The notes below the pieces were generated by a model that saw only the letters and a list, made by a program, of their open reading frames with translations, was not told where the DNA came from and did no database searches. Of a DNA stretch of 64,000 bases, positions 19,102 through 60,947 are shown in pieces. This stretch comes from Cystobasidium ongulense (lineage: Eukaryota > Basidiomycota > Cystobasidiomycetes > Cystobasidiales > Cystobasidiaceae): NCBI GenBank assembly GCA_022835595.1, contig BQUP01000002.1, forward strand, positions 62,001-126,000. The letters are read 5' to 3'. The translations under genes and the position numbers were made by a program. Within the stretch, counting starts at the first letter, position 1. Every line of letters starts with the position of its first letter.

Positions 19102-19276
19102 GTTGGAGAGTGTGCTGTGTCGGAAGAGATGGAGGAAGGGCGAGTGCGAGTGGATGCGAGAGGTGTTCAAGCTGGGAAGACGTCCGCTGGTCGTGAAAGC
19201 CGGCGAGCAATTGCAGTCAATCGGGGTTGCATCCCAACTGACAACAGCAGCAGCAGCATCACCATCAGGATTAGCA

Positions 19277-20361
19277 ATGGCATTGCCCAGACTCAAGCCG
19301 AATGCGGAACTACCTCCTCCGAAAAAGTCTGCCCGGATATCCTTCAAATCAAACTCACGCTCCACACCAGCAAAAAATCAAGAAACATCAGGCAAGATTG
19401 CCACTGCTTCGTCCCAAGATGACGAGAATCAGGATGCTCAGCAGCACCTGGCTAGAGAAGAGGAGATACTGTCTTTGTTGACTGCTCTCAACGCTCCGGT
19501 CATGAATGCGGAACTGCCAGCAACGCTGCAAGCCGTGAAAGCTCATTTGTATGCCAGGAACTATTCTGCTGCGTTTGGACAGCCTGTGAGTAGCCGACTC
19601 GCAGTATTGTGGTCTATTACACACCCTCACACTACACTACTTCAATACAGGACTACCTTCGGGCCTACACTGCGAGATGGGTCTCTGGCCGAGCACTGGC
19701 GTATAGAAGCCTCTTCCTAGGGATACACGAACTTGTCGAAGAGTCTCAGCGAAGAGGGAGATTAGGTCAGCCAACGAGAGCTTTATGCATTGGTGGAGGA
19801 GCAGGAAGCGAAATTCTAGCATTCGCGAGTCTGGCGAAAGAATTATCAGAGAGCAATACCGCCTTCCACCTCACAAGCATAGATTGTGCAGATTGGAGTA
19901 TGATACTCGATGAAATGGGAGAGCTCATCAAGACACGATGGCAGCTACCTATTGAGACATTTCAGAACACATTCAAACAGGAGGATATACTGGATACATA
20001 CGAAGACCTCCCCTTTTCAGAACAGCACATCATAACATGTCTTTTCACAACGAATGAACTCTTCGCTGCGTCACGTGTTAAAACAATGTCTTTACTATCA
20101 CACCTATCTCAAGTCTGTCAGAGCGGCACATTGCTCATTATAGCCGAATCGACGGGCTCATATTCAGAGATACAGATGGGTGCGAAAACTTATCCTCTGG
20201 ATCTAGTTTTGGACATGACACTGGCTGGAAAGAACAAGGCTTGGACGGTCGTTAAGAAAGATCAAAGTATTTGGTATAGAGTGCCAGAGGCAAGTAAGGA
20301 GAAGTACGGGGTCCAGATTGAGAACACGCATATGATGGTGAGAGTATACAGGAAAGTGTAG
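19277..20361 (+). CDS. BMT6: Bmt6-like 25S rRNA uridine-N3 methyltransferase (SAM-dependent)
   Basis: Probable nucleolar SAM-dependent methyltransferase of the Methyltransf_34 family, which includes yeast Bmt6. Exons 19277-19585 and 19651-20361 with a 65-nt intron give 339 residues. The family N-terminal block (LQAVKAHLYARNYSAAFG, then DYLRAYTARWVSGRALAY) is restored by splicing. The SAM-binding glycine motif is ALCIGGGAGSEILAF, followed by the acidic residue in SIDCADW. The C-terminus is NTHMMVRVYRKV. The start was set at the Met of MALPRLKPNAEL; upstream in-frame Mets reach back into the LSC2 leader and are less likely. Substrate is inferred from family membership only. Confidence 0.75.
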
Positions 20362-20706
20362 CATATCTAGGAAATTGTGTGTTCTCACACTGGTGGCTAC
20401 CATACAAAGTCACGTGTTTATACTTTACTCGTTGTATCGTCAGTCTAACCTTTCTCTTGTCATCCAATGCAGGAGTGTTAATGTATGGCTCGTAACAGGT
20501 CTGCTCAACCATTACGCCTCAACTGCCCTGGCTTATCTCGTTCGACGCGCTCCTGCTCCCCGTCGTGGCGCTGTAGCTTTGACTGCGTAGTGCGGTGCAT
20601 CTGTCGCGCTTTGCTCACTACAAATGCGCCAAGAGCAGCTGGACTGCTGACACTCAGCTCGTGGTCTTCACGATATATCGTAGCCCGGGGTGTATCGGAG
20701 ACGGCC

Positions 20707-23083
20707 ATGGCATACTCCCGCTCCAACGATGACAACGATGGATATGGCCGTGAAACGCGCGAGAGAGCAGACTCATTCAGCGGGAGGTTCAGCAATGCAA
20801 ACGTCAACGGTAACTCTGTAGCAGGCATGCCGATGACAAGCCACCCTGCTGCTCTGCAGACTGGAAGCGCAGTCTATCTGCCACCTTCGACACAGCTGCG
20901 TGAGGGCAATATCAACAAACTGCTTCAAGACAGCAATACTGGCGGCGGTGGCTACTACGGAGCAGCAGACGGCAATCCCTTCACAGACGAGACAGCGACA
21001 ATTACACCATTCGACTCTATCTCCAACATTGGTGACCGTGAGGACGACACACTGCCTCCTCCTGCTGTGTACAGAGGCCAAGATTACCTCGCTCGAGACC
21101 CATACGCGCGCAATCAACAAGGATCAGCGTACAATACACGGCCACGCTCAGGGTCGGCAGGAGAAGGATACGACCCTCGTGATTCGAACGGAAGCCTGCC
21201 TTTAATGCAGCACGCTGTCATGCCAGCAGCTGCTAGTGGCGGTAGAAGTGGTGGGCCATCTAGATCACGCACACCTAGCTACTATGCCGACTCCATCATC
21301 GATGGCGATACTGTTATCGACAATAAACAAGGGAGAAAATCAAACTTACAACACTCCTACTCGAACCGGCCACTCTCTCGAGATGAAATAGAACGAGGAC
21401 TTGGGTCCGAAACTTATCCACCGCCACCTAGGTACGACGGACCTGACGAAGAAGAGAAAGGTGATCTTGCAGACCTTTCAAACAGGAATAGCTCAAGGAG
21501 TAGAAGTAATGATAATGTCTTATCTACGTTGATCGGGAACGACAAGTCTGGAAAAAGACCGAATGTTTTCTTGAGACAGTTTAGAGATACTACTTCTTTA
21601 GATGAAAAGATTAGAAACCATAAAGCTGGTATTGGTATTCAACAGCGTCCTTGGGCTTGTTGGGTCATTGCCGTCGTGCTTGTGGTGGTATTTATCGTTG
21701 AATTAGCTAGGAGTGTGAGCCTCATTTGACACAAGTCCAGAATCCATAGCTCGTGGAGAAAACTTATAAATGCTGACTTCCGATGTGTTCATTGCGCACC
21801 ACAGGCACAAAAGACGGGAAAGGCAATCTCAACATCACCATTTAATTATATGATAGGGCCGTCATCCGAGATGCTCATCAATCTAGGAGCTCGTTTCACG
21901 GCCTGTATGCGCAGTATACCGGACATCACAAATACGCCCTTCAAATGTTTGAAAGACACTACATCAACATGCACACTGGAAGATATCTGTGGCTTTGGCG
22001 GTTTCGGTAATTCTGCTACTGCTACACCGAACCAGACTTATCGATTCTTTACCGCTCTTTGGTTACATGTTGGTGTTGTACATTTGCTGTTAAATGGTTT
22101 GGTGCTCCTTACCAGTTCAGCTTTGGTGGAGAAACAAATGGGTACTGTCAAGTAAGCCAAACCTTCCATCGCTGAGTGGTATACAATGGACTACTTGCTG
22201 AAACTTTTCCTGCAGGTTCTTGATAATTTATACAATATCTGGAGTTTTTGGCTTTATACTAGGCGGGAATTTCGCACTTACTAGATCGGCGTCGATGGGA
22301 GCGAGCGGCGCAATTTTCGGTACCCACGCCGCGGTACTAGTTGACCTTATCTGGCATTGGAGACTTTTCGATAGGCCAAAGCGAATGCTTTTCGCTTTGA
22401 TTTTCGAAATCATCGTTGGGTTCGGATTGGGTATGTTTTCTTACTTCTTCGGGCAATCTACAATTTTTAGATTAAGCTGATTGAAAAGCTTCAAAACTAG
22501 GCTATATCCCTGGTATCGACAATTTTTCTCATATTGGCGGGTTTGCTATGTATGCCAAGTTTCATACAATATCGTCTTACAAAATCTAGTTCATGCTGAA
22601 CCTTCAGTTTGCTGTCTTTCAGAGGTCTGCTCCTCTCCATCGTACTGGTGCCAGCCATCCACCAAAATTCAAAGCATAGAGTCGCAATATATATCGCAAG
22701 AGGGGTAGCCTTCGTAGGGGCTTGCGTCATGTTTGGTGTTCTATTGAACAATTTCTTCCAAAGTGATCCCAACAGTGCTTGCCAATGGTGCAGATACCTG
22801 TCTTGTTGGCCAACCACCGCGAACAATGTTAGTATACAACTTTCAATTTTTTTGGGCGGAAGCGAGTACGAAGGTGACTTTGATTGCTGATTGTTGACAT
22901 CTCACACAGCACTGTAAAGGAACAGGCTTGACAACAACCACAACTACGACGACCACGGAAACGAGCACTCCTACGTCTATTTTACCGGATGGCACAATTG
23001 GAGCGTCCACAAATTCGAACGTCGCATTTGCGATAGTCTCTCTCGTCTCAATTTTCATCACAAGATCGCATTACAGGAAGTAA
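20707..23083 (+). CDS. Rhomboid-family intramembrane serine protease
   Basis: Polytopic membrane protease. Exons 20707-21714, 21805-22151, 22216-22430, 22501-22549, 22623-22827 and 22910-23083 give 665 residues. The first 300 residues are Ser/Asn/Gly-rich, cytosolic and probably disordered. The membrane domain starts at about residue 320 (WACWVIAVVLVVVFIVELA). It contains the rhomboid signatures RFFTALWLHVGVVHLLLN, the active-site Ser in GASGAIFG and the catalytic His in SHIGGF; the last lies on a 49-nt exon. Additional segments follow, then a Cys-containing loop and a Thr-rich stretch before a short basic end. The layout matches the large fungal rhomboids of the plasma membrane or Golgi; substrate unknown. 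Confidence 0.9.
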
Positions 23084-23469
23084 AGTCACATTTCCGATAT
23101 TTACCTAGTGCTCTCAGACAGTATGATGGAATTTTCACCCAAAAACAGTCGGCCAAGGTTCGACACATGTAGCAAAGTATCTGTAATTTAAGTTGCTTAT
23201 CTTTCTCTTTCCTGACTCAAACGAATCAGACAGAGTTTCATGCTTCTCCCACTCACGAGGTTTTTGATGTTTATTCAACTAGCGTTGGCGCATCTCCTAA
23301 TCACTTCAATGAAATACCTACAGTCTACGGAGAGTCAATGCCCTTTCAATCAATCATCAAATTTTCGCATCCAGTCCGAGCCGCAACTCGCGTCAACCAA
23401 AGCTTCCAGTATGGTAATAAGCATTTTATTCAATCACGTGAGAGCGAATGTAACAACTCTTTTCTCGGC
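23084..23469. other. Intergenic before the split tRNA gene
   Basis: About 390 bases between the rhomboid stop and the tRNA gene. Only short ORFs are present, and nothing was recognised. Confidence 0.5.
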
Positions 23470-23476
23470 GGCCGCG

Positions 23477-23488
23477 TAGCTCAGTTGG
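23477..23488 (+). promoter_or_regulatory. Pol III A box of the tRNA-Ile gene
   Basis: TAGCTCAGTTGG in the D-arm position matches the tRNA A-box consensus. Confidence 0.85.
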
Positions 23489-23498
23489 TTAGAGCGAT

Positions 23499-23561
23499 GT
23501 AAGCACATTACCATTACGACTCGGTGTCGAATCAAATACTTACTCCCCGCTCCTCATCTAG
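23499..23561 (+). other. Intron 1 of tRNA-Ile (63 nt, GTAAGC...CTAG)
   Basis: It splits the 5' side of the anticodon stem. Donor GTAAGC, a CTTAC branch-like site about 20 nt before the end, a C/T-rich 3' part and acceptor CTAG all match the protein-gene introns around it. GTA occurs at both borders, so other junction positions up to 3 nt downstream give the same product; only this one has GT-AG ends. It has no T-run of four or more. Confidence 0.82.
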
Positions 23562-23579
23562 GTACTAATAATGCATAGG

Positions 23580-23644
23580 GTTAGTAAAGAATCCCTCCTC
23601 CAACAACGCAACCTGGTCTAATAATCTCCCTCCAATTCAATCAG
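23580..23644 (+). other. Intron 2 of tRNA-Ile (65 nt, GTTAGT...TCAG)
   Basis: It splits the variable loop. Donor GTTAGT is also used by MPE1 (15416), TAF6 (38852) and the rhomboid gene (22828). A CTAAT branch-like site lies about 23 nt before acceptor TCAG. The junction could shift by one base without changing the product. It has no T-run of four or more. Confidence 0.82.
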
Positions 23645-23649
23645 TCGGC

Positions 23650-23660
23650 AGTTCGAGCCT
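23650..23660 (+). promoter_or_regulatory. Pol III B box of the tRNA-Ile gene
   Basis: AGTTCGAGCCT in the T arm matches the B-box consensus except for its first base. The two introns push it about 160 bases from the A box. Confidence 0.8.
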
Positions 23661-23671
23661 GTCCGTGGTCA

Positions 23672-23678
23672 TTTTTTT
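23672..23678 (+). terminator. Pol III terminator (seven T)
   Basis: A run of seven T begins immediately after the discriminator base of the tRNA. Confidence 0.85.
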
Positions 23679-25609
23679 GGCCGTTTTCAATCCGGTGTTC
23701 GAAACTCTTTTGCAATGTCAAAAGAGGGTATATATGCGCCTACCTGTCAGCAAAGAAACTTATAGCCCTGGTTTCGCCTTGGGTTACTTTTGGTTCGTTT
23801 TGCATTCTCGAAAACATCAGAGGACTGACGTGGACACTGACTTTCACGAGTTCTTTCTCCACGGACGTCATTGTGGTACTATCCTTCAATTACCTAGACA
23901 CCTGTCATTTGCGAGACCTCCTTTTCATTAATTATCAGCATGTCCGCGCCTTTGCAAAGAAGTTCTGTCAGTGGACTACCTTCGCTAGGTCAGGCTTGAC
24001 TGATTCCAGTGAGCTGCTACCACGACTAGGACTAGAGCTATCTTCTAGCAAAACATTCCTCTTTCCACATTGGGCACTCTTCGCCCTGTATCGTACTAGT
24101 ACAGAGTGACTCGTAGAATGTGTTGCCCTTTCGACCAAAGATCTGTCCCGGGGTGACATGTCCGTCCGTCCATTACTTATGACTGCAGGTTGGAAAGTTC
24201 CAAAAACATATGAATCGAGGTGAAACATTGCGGTACTGCAGCGACTCATTATTAACGTTACAAGCGTGACTCTGCTTTTCTGTTGGAAAGTTGACGGGAG
24301 TGGCTGTAGGATTTTGGGTTGAAAAGGTGACTTAGTAGAAAGTTGGCCGTCTCTTGGTAGTGCAAGATCGGTGTCAGATTTCCGACGGAATGACTACAGA
24401 GTGGGTATGCAGATCCTTTCAGTCGGAGAACTGTATACGGTATGCACGCTGATGATAAGTGGTGCGTAGAAGGGATCCGGATCGTAGGATGTCAGAATCA
24501 TCAGGTGTATGATACGGGAAATGGTACAACTGAAGCTCAAGCATGCATGACAGATTACCGAGACTGGGCAGCTAGGCAAAAAGGCACGCATCAGTCGTAT
24601 GTAGCCGAGATACTTGCATGCCTCAAAGAGCACCGCCAGCAATGCGCCAGTAGCATACCAGCACGAGCCCGAACAATGCACGTCAAAAGGTAAACGTTCT
24701 AAACTTTGTCGTGAAAGAAAGCGGTGCAGCCAAGTGAAGATGGCCGAAGTAAAGGCTGATGCTTCGGGGAAGTGGAACCAAGAGAAACGGAAATGCAGGA
24801 TGGATTTGGATATGTGCACAATGCACGTCTCGGAAAGGCCAGAATTACTGACTGGGTAGAGAACAGTTGAAATGACCGGGGCATCGTGAATCTTGCACGG
24901 AAAGCTCGGAGGCAAAAAGTGGGGTCTCCAAGTATTTAGTCGATGTTTCAATGTGGGAAGAAACCAATGTCAGAAACAGAAGCCAGCAAGTTAACATTCG
25001 TTGAGGCCTTGATGCGTATGACGGTGGGTATGTACACGCCCCATTCTTGCCAGTAGTTCCAAGGCATTTTTGCGCGTAGCTCATTCCGTAGCAAATGTTA
25101 ACGGTTGCTAGAGTTTCTGGCAGAAATATTTGGACACCTACCAGAGCTTGTGAATATTCGAGGAAAGACAAACCCAGCTTTTCAGTAATAATAATAATAA
25201 TAAAAACTCAAGCCGTTGTTCTTGCCAGTTTTTCGCTTCACTTGCGTCTGTCTGGCCGGCCGAGCTCGAATTACTGCATCTTGACAAAGTCACGACTTGA
25301 CGTCGAAGAAGCTCTCTCCAGGTCAGCTCTGTGACGAATCCGACGAGGCAAGGCCGAATTAACAAGCAGACCAATACCGTACAGGACTTGCTAGAAGGCC
25401 AGACGAGCGTGCAGAGAGAAGGATAGCCCTGCCACAGTCGATATCGTTGCCGTATTGCTCTGGAGAGGAACAGGGCGAGCAACAGGCTGCTCGATGGAGG
25501 GATAGAGAGCAAGCATCAGCAACATCATCACTGCAACAATGCTGCCGTAGTACGGACACTCAGCACCCCACCACCACACAAAGCAGGTCCTAGCGCTCGA
25601 CAGCAATCG
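23679..25609. other. 1.9 kb gene-free region upstream of the kinase gene
   Basis: No frame here shows a recognisable domain. The longest ORF (185 codons, minus, 24394-24951) is Cys/Ser-rich without motifs and looks fortuitous. A perfect 10-bp palindrome GTACTAGTAC lies at 24093-24102, and a (TAA)n run at 25186-25203. A long 5' leader or regulatory region for the kinase gene is the simplest reading. Confidence 0.45.
25186..25203. repeat. (TAA)6 microsatellite
   Basis: Six TAA units upstream of the kinase gene. Confidence 0.8.
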
Positions 25610-38170: not shown

Positions 38171-40169
38171 ATGGCCACGACAGCGTGGTCCAAAGGCTCT
38201 GTGAAGGTATGCTGCATGCTAAGTCGACACCATTAGGCCGTGGATACATGCTGATGCTGACCTGGTGTCCTCTGCTGTCGTAGGATGTCGCCGAGTCGAT
38301 TGGCATTGCAGGCCTGTCCGATGAAGTGTCGAGCGCGCTGGCCGCAGATGTCGAATACAGGCTTCGAGAAGTCATAGAGGTGTGTTGAGTGGTATACAGC
38401 TCGTACCAATCTATTCACACGCATCTGTCTCCTAGGAATCCCTCAAATTCGCTCGACATGCAAAGCGCACGAGGCTGAAGGTCGAGGATATTGACTACGC
38501 TCTGAAAGCAAGAAATATAGAAGTCAGGCTGTCAGCTACTGCCATTTCCACTTGTGCTGATTCTTACCTTACAGCCACTATGGGGATTCGCATCCCCTCA
38601 TACGCCTATCAGCTACCGCAAAGTGCCACATTCATCAGGCAACCTCTATGTGCCAGAAGACGAAGAGATAGACCTTTCCAAACTCATACAGTCCGAGCTG
38701 CCTCCAATACCGCGTGAAGTAACGTATACAGGTCGGTCCAGCTCACTCAGTCTGTCCCATCGTCTAGCTGATATGTAATATTGTTTTGCAGCGCACTGGC
38801 TAGCCGTCGAAGGGGTACAGCCTGCTATACCACAAAATCCATCACCTGCCGGTTAGTAGCGAGTGCCCTTACTGCTGCAGCAGTTGACTGACTTGATTGC
38901 TATCTATAGATTTGAGGACAGCAGCCGCCAATGCCCGGTCGGCCGGTAGAACACTGGCGCTCGGTCCCGAAGGTACCGAAGTCAAGCCTCTTGTCGCACA
39001 TGCACTGTCTCGCGAGTTACAGCTATACTTCGATAGGCTGACATCGGCAGCGGTGGTACGGCTGTCTGTTCAAACTGTCGCTCTACAAATGGCTGAATCC
39101 GTCCATCCTACAGGACGCCGACGAAACGACGCGGACAGCGGCGCTGGAGAGTTTCAGAGGAGACACAGGTCTGCAAGGCCTGGTAGCATATCTTGTACAG
39201 TGGGTGGCCGAAAGGGTGGGTCATCATTTCAGAAGTATCTCAGCTCCGTGCTTTATGCTGAAGCGAAAGCCTTTTGCTCTAAGGTGGTCGGCTCGCTGGC
39301 TTCTTCCCTGGTAACACTCGACCAATGTCTGGATATTCTCGAAGCCATGCTACAGAATCCATCCCTCTTTTCCGAACCATACGTGAGTCCGTATGTACCC
39401 AAGAGGTTTTCTGAAGTGCTAAACGCACTGTAATCTCTTTTAGCTACATCAAATCCTTCCTTGCGTTCTATCAATTCTTCTCACCTCCTCACTTGGCCCG
39501 CCGACACCTCAACCCCAGTCTACAAGCGGTTCCCACGCAGCCACGCGGCAGCACGCAGCATCTTTCCTTTCCCTTATCTTAACAAGATATTCACACGCCT
39601 ACTCCGCGCTCAAACCCCGGGCCATGCAAACTATCCTACGAGGCCTGGTAAACGGCTGTCTTCCAGACGGAAAACATTCCGGGACTCTCCTCGGGTCATT
39701 GATGGGGATACGAGCGCTTGGCAATGATAGCGTAAGGCGGATCTTTGGAGCCCAAAACACGAATCTATCAAAAGTTGGCGAAGCTTTACAGAGGAGCGGG
39801 TTCCCAGAAGCGGATCGAGAAGCATGTACGAACACGGTTTTAGAAGCACTACAAGATGCATACCCGCCGTCCGGTCAGCATTCCATGTTCGACTACTCGG
39901 AATTAGAGCGTTTTGCGGGAAGCTATTTCGCAGGTTACATCAACTCGCAATGTTCTGCTTCTGTAGGAGCTGGAATCGTCACAGAGCCGACATCGGAAGA
40001 GCAAGGGCATATCGATGCGATGCCAATAATCAATGGCATGTCCAATGGTGTGCGAAGGCCTTCGGTGCTGCGTGCTCCGTCCAATAGCACCGATCATGAC
40101 CAGTCCCAAGATGCAGAAGCGAGTGGTGATAGTGATGACGATGCTAGCGAGGACGTTGAAATGGAATAG
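38171..40169 (+). CDS. TAF6: TFIID subunit TAF6
   Basis: Histone-fold subunit of TFIID (and of SAGA in yeast), pairing with TAF9. Nine exons: 38171-38206, 38284-38379, 38436-38522, 38575-38731, 38792-38851, 38910-39055, 39114-39215, 39284-39382, 39444-40169. They give 502 residues. The N-terminal histone fold contains DVAESIGIAGLSDEVS, ARHAKRTRLKVEDIDYALK and NIEPLWGF. The VPEDEEIDL linker follows, and then the C-terminal HEAT-repeat domain with LSRELQLYFDRLTSA, LDILEAMLQNPSLFSEPYLHQ (assembled over an intron) and LGSLMGIRALG. The C-terminal 50 residues are acidic and low complexity. Introns are 52-77 nt. It stops about 120 bases from the convergent FAN1 stop. Confidence 0.95.
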
Positions 40170-43840: not shown

Positions 43841-44383
43841 GGCCGCCGCAGGGCGGTAAGCTTGCTCTGGCAGCTTGAACGGCGATGCTCCATGAGTATA
43901 GCAGCCAATGACCCACACGAGCTTGCGATGCAGTGTGTTGTGCGGCAAGAGAAGAATACCAGCCGCCATTGTCAAGAAAAGGCGATCGGCAGCTACAGTA
44001 TTTGCAAGCAGCTAGCTAACAGCTCCTCAAGCTTTCACATTCGCCAACACTGTAGGAATCTGTGCAGAATGATTCGTTCAGTGCGAGTTGCGATACGCAA
44101 TGCCTGGATGCGAATTTCGATGCCATGCTTCACTGACACGCCAATGCTGAGATAGCCGTCGGACAATGGGGCGTGTCGCGCACCAAATCCATGGGAGAAT
44201 TGGTGACACTGCTAGAAAAGTTGTGCAAGCGATCCGGCACTCACAATGACAGCGGCATACGGTACTGGAAAGAGTGCTGCTCGGCCTGATGCGTTGCTGC
44301 TTTTCTCTCTCCCTAACGCAATCAGCTACTACACCACGCAGGACTACACACAACCTTACATCTACCAGTCTACATCGAACAAT
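43841..44383. other. Divergent promoter region, FAN1 / first DM9 gene
   Basis: About 540 bases between divergent genes. A segment near 44205-44240 resembles one near 47515-47550, upstream of the third DM9 gene, which suggests that promoter sequence was duplicated together with the genes. Confidence 0.5.
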
Positions 44384-45308
44384 ATGGGCGTCGAATGGGT
44401 CAGTCTCGTGAATGACACTCGCCGTATCTCGACAGATGATGGACACTGACGTGGCCTTGCATCTCCAACTAAATCGTATACAGAGAAGCAAGGAAAAGGG
44501 ACAGGAGGTCCCTTCCGATGCCATTCTAGGCGGCAAGGAACCAGCGGGTGAACCGCTCTACATTGCTCGAGCTTATTCCGAGCACCATGGTGAATCCGTA
44601 AGGACGACTGGCTGACTCTGCGCCTGAGCTTTCGTCCGCGTTTCTCGTCTGACCTGTCTTTCTGCCCCAGGCTGGTCTCCATCCCGGCAAGTTTGGTACG
44701 TTTGCTGTGTTGTCTCCATGCTTGCACATTGCTTGCGTGCCACTTAGCAGCACTGTCTCGTACCTGCAGGTCCTCTCACTGGCGAATGCGCTCTCTTCGG
44801 CTTCGAAGGCGAAGAATGGTACAACCCCAAGTGCGGTGAGCAGCGATTTGACGAGTAGCATACACCCTAGAGAGGATATGTCTTTAATTCTGCTACTCAG
44901 AGATCCTGTGCGGCGATCAAAACTCCATCAAATGGTTAGACATGGAAGGTTCCTTTCCCGAAGATTACGCGCATCTCAAGTTAGTAGAAGGAGGCAAGGA
45001 TGCAGAAGGCAACCCTCTGTTCTGCGCTCAAGTTGAGACGCAAGGCTCTGTTATACCCGGCAAGTGAGTCTGAGTCTTATCCATGGCGGCAAATCTTACT
45101 TTCACAAAGATTATGACGGCCTGCTCACCTGTACTGCGTACTCTTACAGAGCTGGTCCGAAATTGGACGGTGCCACAGCTTCTTTCGACGGAAAGGAATT
45201 CCCGTAAGTGCCATTTGGACCTTGTTCTCACTTTCTATGTTTCCATTATTGACAGTTTGTGGCATGAATAGTGGCAATCAGGTCTACAAGGTCTTGGCTT
45301 ACGCTTAG
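44384..45308 (+). CDS. DM9-repeat (DUF3421) protein, copy 1 of 4
   Basis: Small soluble protein of the DM9/DUF3421 family, a lectin-like fold known from animals and some fungi; function here unknown. Seven exons: 44384-44398, 44484-44597, 44671-44695, 44770-44835, 44901-45063, 45150-45203, 45272-45308; 157 residues. The first exon encodes only MGVEW. Two DM9 repeats are visible: the first with VPSDAILGGKEPAGEPLYIAR and HPGKFG, the second with LFCAQVE, IPGK and ASFDGKE. The bridging motif EILCGDQNSIKWLDM lies between them. There is no signal peptide or membrane segment. Intron positions are identical in all four copies. Confidence 0.88.
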
Positions 45309-45993: not shown

Positions 45994-46959
45994 ATGGGCG
46001 TTGAATGGGTGAGTCTTCGGCGTTCTCCAAGGGCTTCTCAATCTATTCGACACACGTCAACGCACTCTTTGATCCCTCCGGCAACTCGCGGGTATACAGA
46101 AAAGCTTCAATCCAAAGCACGACGAGCTCCCGAAAGACGCCATTTGGGGAGGCGTAGAGCCAAACGGCCAACCTCTGTACATCGCTCGAAGTTATTTTCA
46201 TCATGAAGGAAAGGCCGTGAGTCCGGTGCCTTACCTGCCGACTCCACAACCTTGATTCGACTATGTTTCTTTCCCCCCCCCCCCCCCCCCCCCCNNNNNN
46301 NNNNAGTACGGTACGTCAGCTATCTTTCAGATGCGATACATTTCCCCTCATGATAGGCCACTTCCCGATTACGTACTTCCCAGGACCGGATTCCACCGAC
46401 AAACGCGTTGTCATCGGCCTTGATGGAAAAGAGGTCGCTAGCGCGGATCATTGCGGTAAGCACTCCAAAAGGGGATATTGATTGTTTCGTAGGAATGTAG
46501 TCTCACTCTACGCCGGCTCCCAATCTTCAGAGATATTGTGCGGCGAGCCGAACCTCGTCAAATGGCTCGACATGGTGGGAAGTTTACCTGAAAACTATGT
46601 TCAGCACAACCTTGTAGAAGCAGGCAAAGATGTACATGGCAATCCGCTCTTCTGTGCTCAGATTGAACACAAGGGTTCTACCATACCGGGCAGGTGAGTC
46701 GTATACCTCTTTATCGTCTCTATACTATGTTTTCCAAAAGGTCAATGGTTCTGACAAACCCCCCACTGTGCGATACTCGTAGAATCGGCCCTCACATGAA
46801 AGCTGCAAGCGCCGCATTTGACGGACGAGAAGTTTCGTAAGTCACTTAATATATTCTATCAGGTTCGCGTTCCTGCGTTGACATTCGCATCCAATTTGGG
46901 ACGCTTTTCGGTTATATAACCCCAGTGAAAATGTTTACACTGTCTTGGCGCACAATTGA
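45994..46959 (+). CDS. DM9-repeat (DUF3421) protein, copy 2 of 4 (contains a sequencing gap)
   Basis: Same family and exon plan as its neighbours. Exons seen are 45994-46008, 46100-46216, the last six bases of exon 3 (to 46310), 46384-46455, 46531-46693, 46783-46836 and 46926-46959. A run of 22 C and ten N (46273-46304) hides most of exon 3, which in the other copies encodes a nine-residue HPGKYG-type segment. On both sides of the gap the frame fits the siblings: LPKDAIWGGVEPNGQPLYIAR before it, and EILCGEPNLVKWLDM after it. The C-terminus is YTVLAHN. The gene is probably intact in the organism; the gap is technical. Confidence 0.83.
46273..46304. other. Poly-C run and assembly gap inside DM9 copy 2
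   Basis: Twenty-two C followed by ten N. It marks an unresolved read end, and its true length is unknown. Confidence 0.95.
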
Positions 46960-47698
46960 ACATACGACTAAGGGGTCGATTGTTGGTGCTGCCAAGGTAC
47001 ACTAAGTATCTCGATTTACTTTGTGCTCCACTGTAACAATGTGAAGGGCTTTGTAGCAAAGGTGGTTTGCATTTTAGTAGTGCAAGTGATCGAGCGCATC
47101 TGGCCCGTATGATGATGACAACCCGGAGCAGCTTTAAGGCTTTGAGATCTGACAACATGTCTGCACCAAGTAAATCACACTCACAAGCGTGTGGTCTACA
47201 GTATGCGATTCGATGCAGTGTCAGCGCGCACTGATGACCATGCCTGAGCTTTGAGCTAGACCGTCGTCGCACTCGTTTTGACGAGGCATCGAGCAGCTTC
47301 ACGCGCAAGCTGGGTGCTTTTGAGACCCTCAACACAGTTCCATTCCAACCAGTGTCATATAGCATCACATGTTACGTTCTTTGGAGTGCAGGATGCGAGG
47401 ATATGCGAGTGACTACCTCGATGCTCGTACTCGTGACTGACATAGCTCTGGCCGAATCACTAACCCTGGTGTGACTGTCGGACAAGCAGCGGAGAACGCC
47501 CAACAAAGCCATGACTGGGCAATGCTAGAAAGCATACGCAAGCGATCCGACCTCCGCGAGAAACAATGAACGTGTTCTGTGGACATGCTCGTGTCTGCTG
47601 CATCTCCTTCTTTCGTCGCATCCACCCAACTCGTAGTCAATCAGGATCATACGCAGCAAGTTTATCTAAACAGTATCTACCATTCTACAACAGTCAAC
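46960..47698. other. Spacer between DM9 copies 2 and 3
   Basis: About 740 bases. Parts around 47150-47290 resemble 48950-49090 downstream of copy 3, showing that the duplicated unit includes flanking DNA. No gene was recognised. Confidence 0.5.
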
Positions 47699-48648
47699 AT
47701 GGGCGTCGAATGGGTTGGTCACCTGTCTTTCCTAGTTGCCTAATCAATCCAGTTGACACACATTGACGCGCTCTTGTTCCCTTACATTCACACGACCCTC
47801 GTCACACAGAAAGCCTTTTCCCCAAAAGAAGACGAGGTCCCTAAAGACGCCATTAGAGGCGGCGTAGAGCCAGATGGAGAACCTCTCTATGTCGCCCGGA
47901 GTCATCTTGAGATCGATGGAAAAGCTGTAAGCCTGAACCAGGTCTTACCAGCCGACCTTGTTTGCCTCTGACTCCCCTTATCGCAGGCTGGTGTCCACCC
48001 TGGCAAGTACGGTGTGTCATATATTCTAGTCGCACTAGCACCCTTGCTTGCTTGATGCTCAGCTTACTTGTCACGTAACTTACAGGTCCTGAAACCACTG
48101 GCAAATGCGTTCTATTCGGCTATGATGGAAAAGAGGCTTGGGCTGGCAAGTACGGTAAGCATCACAACGAAGACATGCTGTCGAAGATTACAATACGTTA
48201 ACTTCCTGCTCTCAGAAATTCTATGCGGTGATCAAAACCTCGTCAAATGGATCGAGGTGAAGGGATGTCTACCTAAAGAATATGTTCACCTCAACCTTGT
48301 AGAAGGAGGCCAGGATGCAGAAGGCACGCCCCTATTTTGTGCTCAGATTGAATTCAAGGGTTCCATCACACCTGGCAAGTGAGTCGCATAGTTCTTTTTA
48401 ACCTCTCCTATGCAAGTGGCACTTCTGTACCTTTCAGCGATTCTGACAACCTGCTTTTGTGGATCAATTACAGAGTTGGGCCTAACATGAATGGCGCAAT
48501 CGCTTCATTTGCTGGATTGGAATGGCCGTGAGTTGCTTATTATATCCTATCGCGCTTGCGCTCACCTTTGATGCTTTTCGTAAATAGTGATAATCAGGTC
48601 TACAACGTTCTAGCGCACGTCAAAGCGAAGGAAGCTTCAGATGTCTGA
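47699..48648 (+). CDS. DM9-repeat (DUF3421) protein, copy 3 of 4
   Basis: Seven exons: 47699-47713, 47810-47926, 47987-48011, 48086-48154, 48216-48378, 48474-48527, 48588-48648; 167 residues. It is ten residues longer than copies 1 and 4 at the C-terminus, ending KAKEASDV. DM9 marks are VPKDAIRGGVEPDGEPLYVAR, HPGKYG, EILCGDQNLVKWIEV, LNLVEGGQDAEG and LFCAQIE. The central motif has WIEV where the siblings have WLDM. Donors include GTTGGT and GTGTGT, weaker than usual. Cytosolic by absence of targeting signals. Confidence 0.88.
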
Positions 48649-49282
48649 AGATGCGAAGGTATATTTCACATTTTGTTATGATCTCCGCTACAGTACATCA
48701 CGTTGTAGGGCTGTAGCAAGTCCATTATGTTTGTCTCGAGAGTCCGAAGATTTGATCTGGAGTATAGCCGAAGGCACTTAGCTTTGACCTTAGTTGCAGA
48801 CAGCGCTGAGATGAGGAGTAGGTCGTACGCTACACGAGGCCTGGGATGGTATGCGAGATAGTACCGTATATGCCGTATATGGTATCAAGTGGTAGGTGAT
48901 CGATTGCATCTTGGGGCATCACGACTTCTGTGGGCTGCTCGAGCCTGAAGCTCTCCAACATGTCTACTCCGAATGCATATCCGACAGTCTGTACATTTGC
49001 AGCACAATTCTACAGCGATGATGGCACTATCTTGAGGCCATGGCTGAGCTTGAGCCTGGAACGACGTCGAACAACGACCGGACTTACGCCTGCTGAGCCT
49101 CTTTTGTGACGTTGGTGGAGGGCCTGTGTACGCAGCCCATCATGATGACAACGGACGTGTTTGATAGGAGTGCGGTGTCCTGTCTGCTCTCTCTTCTCTT
49201 CTCTCCTCTTCCGTTCTCATCCAGCCAGAACAGCACGCAATAACCACACTCAAACAGCATCTACCAGTCTACAACAATCAAC
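48649..49282. other. Spacer between DM9 copies 3 and 4
   Basis: About 630 bases, related in part to the previous spacer. It ends with the shared leader before the ATG of copy 4. Confidence 0.5.
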
Positions 49283-50214
49283 ATGGGCGTCGAATGGGTT
49301 AGCGACTTGCACGCCCTACATTTCTCCCTGCTGGCTACACACTGACGCGACTCCTCCTCCTCACACTTTCCAATCCCTGCAGAGAAGCTTTACTTCGGGC
49401 GCGGAACTACCTCAAGATGCCATTCGAGGCGGTCAAGAACCCGGCGGCGAACCACTTTACGTCGCTCGAGCACACGTTGAGGTCGATGGTCAGGCCGTAA
49501 GTCTGACGCGCGCTTGCCCTCTTCATCCGCCACGCTTTCTCACTTTTGCTACCACCTTAGGTTGGTGTCCATCCCGGCAAGTTTGGTAGGTCATTTCCCT
49601 CCGCTCTCCATCTGGGCTGTTGCCTGATACTAAGCTTGTCTCGACCTTTTCATTACAGGCTCTACCACCGGTCGAGGCGTTCTAGTCGGCTACGCCGGCA
49701 AAGAGAAGTACTTTGGCAAGTACGGTAAGAACAACGAACTCCAAGAGACGCCAATATACAGAACTCAAACTTAGTCTACGTCCACTTTTCTTCTCCCAGA
49801 CCTTCTCTGCGGTGATGTGAACTCCGTCAAATGGCTAGATATGTCAGGCCCACTTCCTGAAGACCATTCCTCTTTGAACCTCGTTGAAGGAGGTCAGGAT
49901 GGCGACGGCAAAACCCTCTATGTCGCTCAGGTTGAAATCAAAGGTGCCGTAGTACCTGGCAAGTGAGTCACATTCCGGCTTACCCCTTCTGCTTCCTTTT
50001 CTCTTAGTATCGGTCCCGAAGGACACTTTCACTCACCGTCCTATTGTATATACCTTAGAACTGGATCTCACATGAACGCCGCTACTGCTGCTTTTGAAGG
50101 AATCGAAATTAAGTGAGCTTATGTCGATGGACTTGGTCTTTCATGTTGAGGGGCTGACGATTCATTGCGGAACTAGTGACAATCAGACCTACAAGGTCTT
50201 GGCTCACGCTTAAA
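49283..50214 (+). CDS. DM9-repeat (DUF3421) protein, copy 4 of 4
   Basis: Seven exons: 49283-49297, 49383-49496, 49561-49585, 49660-49725, 49800-49962, 50059-50112, 50178-50214; 157 residues. It has both DM9 repeats (LPQDAIRGGQEPGGEPLYVAR with HPGKFG, then LYVAQVE with VPGK and AAFEGIE). The bridging motif begins DLLCGDVN instead of EILCGDQN. It ends NQTYKVLAHA. It is the last member of the array and converges on glutathione reductase, leaving 290 bases between the two stops. Confidence 0.88.
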
Positions 50215-55508: not shown

Positions 55509-57616
55509 CTACTCGTCTGGATCATCACCAAAGAGATCGTCCATATCATTCGAAGGCGAATCTACTGAGATATCTTGCATTGATACTTGAATATCGTCGT
55601 CGTTGTGTACCGGTTCAGCCTGGTCTTGGAGGATGCTAACATCGATATCCGGCGCTGCAGATTGAGGACGCGGCGGAGGAGATGGCTGACGATCGACTTG
55701 CATGAGGTCTTCACTGTCTTCGCGAGAAGTTCGACTTGTGCTTGGATGTTCAATGGATACCTTCTTCTTCTCTCCAAAGACGATCGCTGGATCTGCTCTT
55801 GGGGCCGTACTACTGCTCGCCGAAACAGGCTCTTCTGCATCCGTGGCAGATGGAAGAGGAGCTTGAGCAGCCTCTTTTTCAGCTGCGTCTGCTTTCTTAA
55901 TCTCATTTTGGAAGTGCTGAAGCTTATTCTGAGCAGCTACATGTTGAGCTTTCTTCATATCCAATTCTTGTGTAAGCTTCTTCAGGGAATCTTCGAAGCG
56001 CCGCTTGATAATAGGATTTGGAGCGCGTGATACTTCTCCCCTCTTTCGATTGACTGCATTTTCTAGATCCTTCATCTCGTCTGCCATAAGTCTGATACGT
56101 CTCTTCGCCTCTAGAGTCTCGTCGTTATCTTGAACTGTAGCATCACCCAAAACGACATTGTCATCTTCGTCATCGCTGTGAGCTTTACCAAACAGATCGT
56201 CTTCGTCGGAATCCTCGCTACCTTCAGACTCGTCAGACTTGTCGGCATCTTTTGGCTTGCTGCCTGCTGCGGTGGAGGATGGTCCAGCCTGCGATGTAGA
56301 GGCCGCTGCACCAGGCTTGCGAGATGGGTCCCCAATTTCACCTTCAATCATAGCTGCTAGATCGGAGTCGTAACCTTCGGCATCGCTGTCCTCTTCCTCT
56401 TCTCCGTCTTCTCCCTCCTCGTCATCGTCGTCGTCATCATCATCTTCATCGTCCTCATCATCCTCACCCTCACCCGATTCGTTTTGCTCGACACGGAGAT
56501 CCGTAGGTACGGCTGATGGCGCACCTTCCGACGGTCCGGCCACAGGTGTCTCGCCTTCGGCATCTATTTCTGTAATCGATGCTGCAGGGATAGCTTGGTC
56601 ACTCTCCTGAGCTGGTGCATTGGCAGTTGATGTCGAGGCCATAAGAGCAGGATCCAGAGACATGTCAACTCCCGCGAATTCGGCCATGTATTCCGCTTGA
56701 GTTCGTAATTGCTCTCCTTCCTGGATCTCCGACTCATCTACCATCTCGTATTTCACCTCATCCGCATCCTCGTCTTGTTCGATGAGCCTTTCGACTTGTC
56801 TTTCGACAATCTCGATAGCTTGCTTGTTGATTCTGGGTTTGAAGCGTCGCCTTCTGACATTACGCAAGGGAGGTGACAGGCCGTGAGGGTAGATGTAGTC
56901 ATCGATATTGAAGGGTTTGTCGCTTGAAACTGCAGCTTGTTCGGATGCTATCGGGTATTCGACGAGAAGCATCTGTAAAGTCAACGGGCAGCGCGGATAT
57001 GTATCAGCGGCTGATGCTAGACGAATTGTCAGGTTTCACTTCACCGCCTCACCTGGGATATATCTGCAGTCTTGAATACATGTCTATTGTCGTGCGTCTT
57101 CTGGCTCTCTATCAGACATGGCAGATCTACCAGCTTCGCATTGTACATGGTCTGACCAAGATTGAAGACAGCACGCCGCGAGTCCATGAACTTGAACCAG
57201 ACATCCTTTTCATCCATTGGTTCGCGCTTCTTGACCATATCGGAGAACCTTTCTAGCTCCTTCACCTGATCATCGTTCGTCGGAATTGGCATTCGCAGGA
57301 TGAATGCCTCTTCAAAGACCAGCGGCTCTTCTGTATCGCTGTCCAGTTCTCTGTCTCCGAAGCCCTGCCACTGCGGAGGGATATTGGCATCCTTTCCCGA
57401 CACATTTGTGATTGTATAGCCGCCTTTAACGCCTCTCTTGCCTGTGATGTTTGCTCCGCCGGTCTTTACCTTGAGCTTGACCTTTGCTGGCCCAGCGCTG
57501 TGGGATCCACCATGCTCGTCGCGATATGCGCCTCTTCTGCCTTTGCGGCCGCGCTTAGCAGCCGTGCGCTTGGGACGCCTGCCACCGCCGTAGTCGCTGC
57601 TCTCGTCGCTGCTCAT
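55509..57616 (-). CDS. TAF7: TFIID subunit TAF7
   Basis: Subunit of TFIID that binds TAF1. Exons 57616-57053 and 56972-55509 with an 80-nt intron give 675 residues. The TAFII55 N-terminal domain is clear: EEAFILRMP, WFKFMDSRRAVFNLGQTMYNA, LVDLPCLIESQKTHD, KTADISQMLLVEY (joined by splicing) and YIYPHGLSPPLRNVRRRRF. The rest is long for TAF7, with an almost pure Asp/Glu stretch (near 56380-56470), an acidic Ser-rich region, a coiled-coil-like segment around MKDLENAVNRKRG, and an acidic C-terminus ending FGDDPDE. The N-terminus is basic (RRPKRTAAKRGRKGRRG), probably an NLS. Confidence 0.93.
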
Positions 57617-57758
57617 TGCTGCATGAAAGTCGGTTGTTGGCTGTGTCGGTGCAGTCTTGACAGCTTTCAGAGCGTGAAGTCGCGGTGAAGATGGTGGAGT
57701 GGCACTCTGTCTCTTGCCGACACGGTGCAGAAGAATATCTGCTGTCTAACAGGCGACA
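57617..57758. promoter_or_regulatory. Short bidirectional promoter, TAF7 / SCAMP
   Basis: Only 142 bases separate the two divergent start codons, so both promoters must share this interval. No TATA box is obvious. Confidence 0.5.
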
Positions 57759-59025
57759 ATGTCGAGTAAGCTGGCATGACCACACAATGCGTCTGTTCTG
57801 CTAACCCCGTCTATCTGCTCGCCAGACCCATTTGCCGACCAGGCGAGCCTCCACTCTGCCGAGGACAACCCGTTTGCAGACAATCACGACAAGGTGAGAA
57901 GCGCAGATGAGAGATAGAACAAGCATATAGTACTGATATGCTACTGCTATCCCTCTTCCGCACCACTCATCTTCATCCAACCCATCCTGCTGGCTCCCTC
58001 GTCATAACGGCTGTGCCTGTTGCACTCGACTGCTCGCATAAAACAGTATCTCGAGCCCGACTTTGACGCGACGCCAAATGCATCAACAGTCTCACTCCCT
58101 TATCATCAACAGAGCCAGGGTTTCAATGATGGCAGTTCGTCTGGCGGGAAACCTGGACGTAGCATGGCCGACGACACAGCTGCGCGAATGGCGGAAATCC
58201 AACGTCGAGAGCAAGAGCTAGCAGAGCGGGAACGTAATCTTGGACAGCGAGAAGACTTTGTACGTCGTCATGGGCGCAACAATTGGCCTCCGAAACCATA
58301 TTGGCCATTTGCGCCCTTGCTCTACCATGAGATAGACGAGGAGATACCTGCGCCCAGCCGTCAGATAGTCAACACCTTGTACCGACTCTGGCTCGTTCTA
58401 GTCCTCACCATAATCCTCAACTTGGTTGCATGCATCCTCCTTCTAGTCACTGGATCAAGCGATGGTGCCAAAGATCTAGGAGGCTCGATAGTCGACCTCT
58501 TCATTATCCCTTTGGCATTCTTGCTTTGGTACCGGTGAGTTGGCCCAGTAGCCAGTATACATTGCCAATCAAGCCACTAATTCGTTCGCTATTGTAGACC
58601 CGTGTACAATGCCTTCATGAAGGAGCAAGCGTTCTATTACTATCTCTACTTTGTCTTCAACGCCTTCCACATTGCTTTCTCTATATACAGCCTGATAGGC
58701 ATACCTAGCACCGGATCAGCGGGTATCATCAACACCATCGCGTCCTTTGCTCGAGGTAGCATAGTTTCAGGCGTGTTTTGCATACTGGCGACCATCGGTT
58801 GGGGCATTGAAAGTGTGAGTCGGTGCCAATTATGTTGACTCTTGGCGGGTCAGAAACCTGACTGCACATTTTCTTCAATAGGCTGGCTGTCTCTTCATGT
58901 TCCGCTTCGTCTGGAAACATCACAATGACAAGGGTCATACATTCGCCCAAGCCAAATCTGAAGTCTCGACATATGGTCTCAAGGCGTACTTCTCTAGAAG
59001 CAACCACGTGCCATCGAATACCTAA
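57759..59025 (+). CDS. Secretory carrier-associated membrane protein (SCAMP)
   Basis: Post-Golgi and endosomal trafficking protein. Exons 57759-57765, 57826-57893, 58047-58534, 58598-58814 and 58882-59025 give 307 residues. The first coding exon has just seven bases (Met, Ser and one base). Splicing creates the N-terminal NPF motif (MSNPFADQASL); a second NPF follows at DNPFADN. Then come a coiled coil (MAEIQRREQELAERERNLG), the SCAMP signature NNWPPKPYWPFAPLLYHEI and four membrane segments with FMKEQAFYYYLYFVF between them. NPF motifs bind EH-domain proteins. The start depends on a short exon, but the resulting NPF and frame strongly support it. Confidence 0.92.
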
Positions 59026-59270: not shown

Positions 59271-60947
59271 TCAGCTGGCCTCCTCTTCAGCAAGCCCTAC
59301 GTTATTATACCTATGAACCCTCGAGCCGCGTCCTCTTATTCTTCTGAAACACCCTTCAGCGACTGTATCTATCCAGTCTCTCCCTTGTGTCTCTACAACT
59401 CTTCCATCAGTCTTCACCTTGTACGATTTTCCATCATCTCTCCACGATACCTTGTTTCCAAGCATGGCAAACAACCATATTGGTAATGCGGACATTTCCC
59501 TGACTAGCCATGCTAGGAGGAATTGTATCCGGAATCCTGACGATCCTGGTCCATCGTGATATGGATTGTGTAGCTGCTGAGCTGGTGAAGCGAGAGTTAT
59601 TGTGCGGTAGAAGGTAACATCCAGACTGTACCACGCTGCCATGTGTATCACGAGGAACAACCACATAGGCATCGAAAAGAAATGTTGGATAGCCAATCCG
59701 CCTATCAAGCCGGAAACTATGCTTTCCGTTAGCGGTTCGAGGAGAGTTGAGACGCTGGTGGGAAAATAGGCATGTTAGCGGCATATCAAGAAACTTCATG
59801 TACGTGCTTCTCTTACAAGACCATGTACTTCCTCACGCGTATCCAGCGAACTCTTCTCCAGAAATACTTTTCCAAACTCATGTTGCCGACGGCATTTGCA
59901 GCGACATCCGGCGCTATAGCGTGTCTCATTCCGATGTCATGCCATATGAACCTTCCAATCATGTTATCCTCTCCCAAATATTCACCAAATGCTGCGATTC
60001 CGTACTTGTCCTGCTCCCTCAGAGTATCCATTGCACCTTGAACTTCCGATTTTCCTTTCGCACGTTGACTGTGCGCTCGAGTCGCACGTTCGAGGTCCGT
60101 CTTTGTGAATAGACACGACTTGCCGCATACGCACGAGTCTATAGCAGGTTCGTTGATGGCTAGGTACATCTTGGCATGCGTTGTAGATAGGAAAGCTTGT
60201 TCAACACGACTACCCAGGTTGGTATCTGGCCATACTGGGAACGGAACATGGTGTACTAGACCTATCGGCTTGCTTGTTGGCGTAGCTGGCTTGAATGCTG
60301 CTATGGCACGTCGAAGTGCTTGTGGCGAGGATTGGACATTTGAGTCTGCTATCCAGAGCATATCGAATTGAGCAGCTCTGTAGGGCTTCACGAGATTGTT
60401 CACCTTGGGATTGACTCCGACTATCTCTTCGCCTGGAAGTATCGTCAGCTTGAATTTACTGTACTGTTTAGACCGGTAGTTCTGGCTTCCTGTAGCACCT
60501 ACCTATGATTATAGACGCATTCACTTGCGGAAATCGCTCCATAAGATCTTTCACGATAGGAATAGCTTGATCGTCCTCTTCGGCAACAGAGCAGATAATC
60601 TCGAGTTTGTGTTGGGGATACTGCTGTAGAAAGCTGGACTCGAGGTTTTCGTACAGATTGCAATCCAAACCCCGAAGAGGCCTGATGATTGTCACGCCTG
60701 GTAGAACCTCATCTGGTTGTTCATTCCCAAAGTCTTTATTGTGCGTTGTGGTTCTAGCATTGCTATAGTTGCGCTTGCTGTGTATACAAGCAATGGATGT
60801 TTGTAATCAGCATCGAGATCCATTCATTCATTCATTCAGCACCTGACAGCAGCCAGCTTACGCGACGTGAAGACCGAGGAAGCACAATCCCCATAGAACA
60901 GCCCACCACCCGAGCCCTAGGGCGGCCAGCCAGGTTGCCAACGCCAT
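59271..60947 (-). CDS. GCS1: Ceramide glucosyltransferase (glucosylceramide synthase, GT21)
   Basis: Transfers glucose from UDP-glucose to ceramide in the Golgi/ER membrane. Exons 60947-60862, 60777-60503, 60432-59817 and 59754-59271 give 486 residues. An N-terminal membrane anchor (WLAALGLGWWAVLWGLCFLG) precedes the GT domain with VTIIRPLRGLDCNLYENL, the D1 motif CSVAEEDD, D2 in MLWIADSNV, D3 in EYLGEDNMIG and the catalytic WRRVRW (the R/QxxRW motif). C-terminal membrane segments follow, including GGLAIQHFFSMPMWLFLV. This enzyme is present in most filamentous and basidiomycete fungi and absent from baker's yeast. It is divergent from GWT1. Confidence 0.94.

Follow-up and report, generated by a model that had tools for sequence, protein, structure and literature searches.

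A tRNA-Ile(AAT) gene of Cystobasidium ongulense divided by two inserts with GT-AG boundaries

In the stretch of DNA analyzed here, the window (64,000 nucleotides of Cystobasidium ongulense contig BQUP01000002.1, positions 62,001 to 126,000 of the forward strand), positions 23470-23671 of the + strand consist of three pieces of a tRNA split by one insert of 63 nt and another of 65 nt. We find strong support for a tRNA-Ile(AAT) gene that carries two inserts, neither of them at 37/38, with boundaries that fit GT-AG as the sole dinucleotide rule. Judged from the sequence, the locus is probably a nuclear tRNA-Ile(AAT) gene with two U2-type introns, from which the spliceosome would produce a working tRNA.

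Anatomy of the gene and its transcription signals

The features of the locus, numbered from the first letter of the window, are the following.

23470..23498, + strand: exon 1 of tRNA-Ile(AAT), 29 nt; 5' strand of the acceptor stem, D arm and A box, through tRNA position 28
23477-23488, + strand: A box TAGCTCAGTTGG, inside exon 1
23499..23561, + strand: putative intron 1 (63 nt), inserted between tRNA positions 28 and 29; donor GTAAGC, acceptor TAG (ends GTAAGC...CTAG)
23542, + strand: A of the branch-like CTTAC of intron 1, the 20th base from the intron end
23562..23579, + strand: exon 2, 18 nt, positions 29-46; remaining anticodon stem, loop CTAATAA (anticodon AAT) and start of the variable loop
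23580..23644, + strand: putative intron 2 (65 nt), inserted between tRNA positions 46 and 47; donor GTTAGT, acceptor CAG (ends GTTAGT...TCAG)
23621, + strand: second A of the branch-like CTAAT of intron 2, the 24th base from the intron end
23645..23671, + strand: exon 3, 27 nt, positions 47-73; T arm, B box, 3' strand of the acceptor stem and discriminator A73
23650-23660, + strand: B box AGTTCGAGCCT, inside exon 3
23672..23678, + strand: run of seven T residues (T7) directly 3' of base 73, a Pol III-type terminator

The joined exons, 74 nt in length, were called as tRNA-Ile(aat) by ARAGORN. All 21 of the 21 stem pairs form in the joined molecule, 17 of them Watson-Crick and 4 G-U, and the earlier note's description of a perfect 74-nt tRNA after excision of 23499-23561 and 23580-23644 therefore holds if perfect is taken to mean free of mismatches. 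Among the positions generally counted as conserved in tRNA, U8, A14, G15-C48, G18, G19, A21, G26 and U33 are present, as are A37, G53, T54-T55-C56, A58, C61 and A73. From the unspliced locus ARAGORN called no tRNA, whether it was given a 350-nt genomic stretch around the locus or the whole window. The coordinates of the inserts in the earlier note are exact. Searched against Rfam, the window gave nothing at the gathering threshold, and no tRNA hit with E values up to 5.

The A and B boxes both lie outside the introns and are unbroken, with starts at 23477 and 23650, 173 nt apart. No TTT occurs within the 202-nt precursor, and the first run of T residues is the T7 that follows base 73. Measured against the general consensus for boxes A and B and the usual layout of a Pol III gene, the two boxes and the predicted terminator are arranged as in a Pol III gene. 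The lack of TTT is mildly unusual, being shared by 2392 of 19668 random 202-nt pieces and by 17 of 60 comparable introns, and avoidance of T runs was accordingly rejected as proof of Pol III transcription and taken as suggestive at most.

A rhomboid-family gene lies upstream in the same orientation, and the spliceosome normally acts on Pol II transcripts. The presence of this coding region upstream would favor a reading in which the tRNA lies within a Pol II transcript, for example a rhomboid read-through, is spliced there and is then excised by RNase P and tRNase Z. We consider such a route highly improbable, as the intact A and B boxes, the T7 after base 73 and the absence of an internal TTT are what a Pol III gene needs.

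The main rival to a working, spliced gene is a dispensable or dead copy, that is, a tRNA-Ile pseudogene or non-essential copy with insertions that is spliced poorly or never, with intact tRNA-Ile(AAT) genes located elsewhere. The four G-U pairs could hint at decay and count in favor of this rival. In the available part of PMC4090602, short insertions in the D or T arm of eukaryotic tRNA genes are described as occurring mostly in one of many synonymous genes and as supposed pseudogenes, nucleomorphs and Cyanidioschyzon merolae being the exceptions to this rule; this also speaks for the rival. However, all 21 stem pairs, the checked conserved positions, boxes A and B and the T7 at base 73 have been kept in the present gene, and two unrelated inserts that fit only GT-AG are hard to explain by random insertion. 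We therefore regard a pseudogene or dispensable copy as unlikely.

Boundaries of the inserts and other intron types

The number of ways in which a tRNA can be recovered from this locus was determined with the tRNA fixed from its 5' end to G26 and over the T arm, while the 150-nt interior between these parts was cut in all ways. A cut was accepted if the anticodon stem had 5 bp, U33 was present, position 37 held a purine and the variable loop was 4-5 nt long. Under a GT..AG rule the interior has exactly one solution, which is the pair of introns first read from the sequence. When the same starting and ending dinucleotides were required of both introns, in all 256 combinations of 16 starts and 16 ends, only GT..AG yielded an anticodon arm; it was still the sole working rule with introns down to 10 nt or with 4/5 stem pairs. 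Admitting a single GT-AG intron, introns down to 10 nt or 4/5 stem pairs gave no further solution. When the boundaries were left free, so that each of two cuts removed 40 nt or more and 22 nt remained, there were 42 solutions, 40 of them with AAT and representing 10 distinct AAT products.

Dinucleotide shuffles of the interior were scored in a test that admitted one- or two-intron GT-AG solutions with introns of 40-130 nt. Any GT-AG arm was obtained in 1 of 5000 shuffles, and AAT in none. Similarly, 3 of 4908 random genomic pieces (5000 draws minus 92 that lay near the locus or contained N) had any solution, and 0 had one with AAT. The observation is real and far above chance.

Both junctions can be slid along the sequence without changing the joined tRNA. 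A GTA repeat allows the junction of intron 1 to move from 28/29 to 31/32, and that of intron 2 can move to 45/46; the ends are GT-AG only at 28/29 and at 46/47. The GTA stands at both ends of intron 1, and three bases prove nothing about its origin.

A canonical intron at 37/38 would call for an unbroken run from position 27 to 37, with U33 and a 5-bp stem to 39-43. It was tried and rejected for this locus, as position 33, read straight on, would be G and the anticodon stem would form 1/5 or 3/5 of its pairs when the variable loop is set to 4 or 5 nt. Most eukaryotic tRNA introns occupy the canonical position, and 132 of 143 tRNA genes of Cryptococcus neoformans contain an intron, according to the portion of PMC4090602 that is available. 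The accessible text of PMC8450103 gives one intron at most per eukaryotic tRNA gene. The present inserts resemble the canonical introns cut by Sen in that they lie in a eukaryotic nuclear tRNA gene and in that 63 and 65 nt fall within the 6-133 nt given for such introns in the same portion of PMC4090602. In contrast to canonical introns, they are located at 28/29 and 46/47, number two in one gene, have GT-AG ends and leave no usable 37/38 reading.

Several non-canonical introns in a single tRNA gene, as seen here, are described for C. merolae, nucleomorphs and Crenarchaeota in the available parts of PMC3978253, PMC4033280 and PMC4090602. The tRNA genes of C. merolae have up to three introns of 11-69 bp with bulge-helix-bulge junctions (PMC3978253, available part), and for the short introns of nucleomorphs the mode of cutting is given as unknown in what is available of PMC4090602. 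In C. ongulense, too, a tRNA splicing endonuclease of wider specificity, as in C. merolae, might remove both inserts, with the GT-AG ends being incidental; the presence of two introns outside 37/38 resembles the multiple introns of the C. merolae genes (same part of PMC3978253) and speaks for such an enzyme. The earlier note had counted clear bulge-helix-bulge structures with cleavage at positions other than GT-AG as evidence against its own reading, and the precursor was searched for two 3-nt bulges flanking a 4-bp helix, each placement being evaluated both with the other intron in place and with it removed. The central helix had at most 3 of 4 pairs in the 64 placements for intron 1 and the 32 for intron 2, in every slid register, and thus no such structure was found at either junction. 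Whereas bulge-helix-bulge junctions are described for archaea and C. merolae in the available parts of PMC3978253, PMC4033280 and PMC4090602, the present gene has none and its introns end in GT-AG. The wider endonuclease is also opposed by the result that GT..AG was the only working rule of 256, and by splice signals, from donor to branch-like site and acceptor, that do not stand out from those of local protein-gene introns. We consider it improbable.

Two further kinds of insert were rejected. Group I and group II self-splicing introns found no support, as no Rfam intron family matched in the window at the gathering threshold; 63 and 65 nt are too short for introns of either group. An introner-like origin was also discarded, since no match between the two introns exceeds 6 bases, the sole match to a gene intron covers 10, and elsewhere in the window the longest one covers 11. 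The lack of a shared match longer than 6 bases suggests that the two introns were gained separately. If so, the first intron was presumably already being spliced when the second arrived, as the gene would otherwise have been dead by then.

Other interrupted tRNA genes were sought in the window by a scan for a T arm, acceptor and A box on both strands, and none was found (reversed sequences 0/2). Exact-pattern scans for relatives gave 0 in viral contigs and prokaryote genomes, as expected from the contents of these collections, and these zeros say little.

Likeness to local introns and competing splice choices

The two tRNA introns were compared with 115 introns in 16 gene models of the window, obtained with our own ab initio exon-intron predictor trained on the window's long open frames; the predictor is crude, some of its introns are doubtful, and the model at 19154-23502 merges at least two genes. 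The donor, branch site, acceptor and length of both tRNA introns are inside the range of the 115 predicted introns, 67 of which are 55-75 nt long. By a score that takes no account of length, intron 1 reaches -3.18 and intron 2 reaches -2.17, and predicted gene introns score below them in 22/115 and 38/115 cases, respectively. Among 1841 GT-AG pairs of 55-79 nt sampled from both strands with real introns left in, 53 reach -3.21 and 31 reach -2.2, values close to the scores of intron 1 and intron 2.

The earlier note had described the inserts as exactly like the protein-gene introns next door. This is accurate for their lengths and splice signals, the donor GTAAGC of intron 1 being a good one, but does not extend to the branch-like CTTAC of intron 1, which is weak, or to base composition, in which both introns are poor in G. 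The G fraction is 0.14 in intron 1 and 0.11 in intron 2 compared to a median of 0.21, and among the 72 predicted introns that are 55-80 nt long, 2 have values of 0.143 or less. Fold stability per base was lower in intron 2 than in all 72 compared introns; for intron 1, 10 of the 72 were equally weak or weaker. Low structure together with the absence of TTT, the latter being a weak point, would suit introns that spare tRNA folding and Pol III transcription.

Several other pairs of splice sites at the locus score as well as or better than the two introns. The 146-nt pair 23499-23644, which skips exon 2, has a score of -1.36 without the length term, above both intron 1 and intron 2, and the 153-nt pair 23499-23651 ties with it; for intron 2, likewise, the acceptors at 23651 and 23644 have equal scores. 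Intron 1 is also outscored by the GT-AG pairs 23499-23584 (86 nt) and 23499-23578 (80 nt). Among the 51 GT-AG pairs in 23441-23700, ranked by the same score without length, intron 2 is tied for third place and intron 1 is seventh. Because the exon-skipping pair and other pairs outscore them, accurate removal of the two introns would depend on a bias toward short introns or on assistance from the folding of the tRNA. The part lost with the 146-nt intron is exon 2, which holds the anticodon, and its small size of 18 nt counts against a spliceosomal reading. That an exon-skipping intron outscores either short intron is also a point in favor of a pseudogene.

The anticodon region of exon 2 reads TACTAAT, which we take to resemble the yeast branch site, and exon 2 could on this account contain a decoy branch point. 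By eye, the 8-mer CTAATAAT occurs twice in the gene, in the anticodon loop of exon 2 (23565-23572) and at the branch-like site of intron 2 (23618-23625).

Proposed maturation and relation to known systems

The structure set out in the earlier note stands, and its interpretation is partly supported. Of the two readings it had offered, the spliceosome is favored over a broader tRNA endonuclease because bulge-helix-bulge structures are lacking and the splice signals lie inside the range seen in nearby protein genes. In the spliceosomal reading, which we continue to prefer, Pol III would transcribe a precursor of about 200 nt, the ends of which would be trimmed by RNase P and tRNase Z. The spliceosome would take out both introns as lariats, by intron definition, and the 74-nt product would presumably be modified, with A34 converted to inosine, and charged with isoleucine. 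An analogy for the splicing step is found in fission yeast, where an mRNA-type intron is removed from a U6 precursor transcribed by Pol III; introns occur in other fungal U6 genes too.

The U6 snRNA of fission yeast, as described in the available part of PMC10484740, carries an mRNA-type intron in an RNA made by Pol III, and resembles the present gene in that the host is a short, structured Pol III RNA. U6 differs in belonging to the spliceosome itself, and the proposed origin of its intron is reverse splicing near the catalytic bases (PMC10484740, same part). The tRNA, unlike U6, hosts two introns and has no link to the spliceosome that would explain their insertion.

A stronger claim would be that this lineage makes the essential tRNA-Ile(AAT), and perhaps other tRNAs, only by way of the spliceosome, so that isoleucine decoding depends on pre-mRNA splicing. 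We consider this possible but doubtful. If it is true, spliceosomal introns entered tRNA genes and became adapted to Pol III by a lack of T runs and by having little structure. A tRNA gene with two spliceosomal introns would show that an uncapped Pol III transcript from outside the splicing machinery can serve as a substrate of the spliceosome. The gene would offer a small test system for the gain of introns in structured RNA, and would add a new kind of exception to the tRNA introns of nucleomorphs and red algae, as those are described in the available parts of PMC4090602 and PMC3978253. Such genes would then be able to evade tRNA finders, as this one was missed by ARAGORN and by Rfam as run.

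No report of spliceosomal introns in tRNA genes was present among the open PMC matches listed, as judged from titles and the starts of abstracts; subscription papers are mostly outside this scope, and the absence is no proof. The locus is best read as an intron of a familiar type in a class of gene for which no report was found among the literature matches listed.

Several other features of the window were recorded. A glutathione reductase gene has 2hqm, which we take to be a yeast protein, as its best solved match. The predicted genes at 44246-45308 and 47585-50213 have domains that resemble each other; the first contains a segment that matches the DM9 repeat family (PF11901), and the second looks by eye like a tandem relative. 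A poly-C run at 46273-46294 is followed by 10 N (46295-46304), which mark a short assembly gap. A sub-threshold Rfam match to HIV-1_SL3 at 59501-59522 (22.3 bits versus a gathering threshold of 33, E 0.56) involves a model of 23 bases and was read as chance. Two TFIID subunit genes are located at 55509-57926 and 38171-40169, and are TAF7-like (TAFII55_N) and TAF6-like (TAF6_C), respectively.
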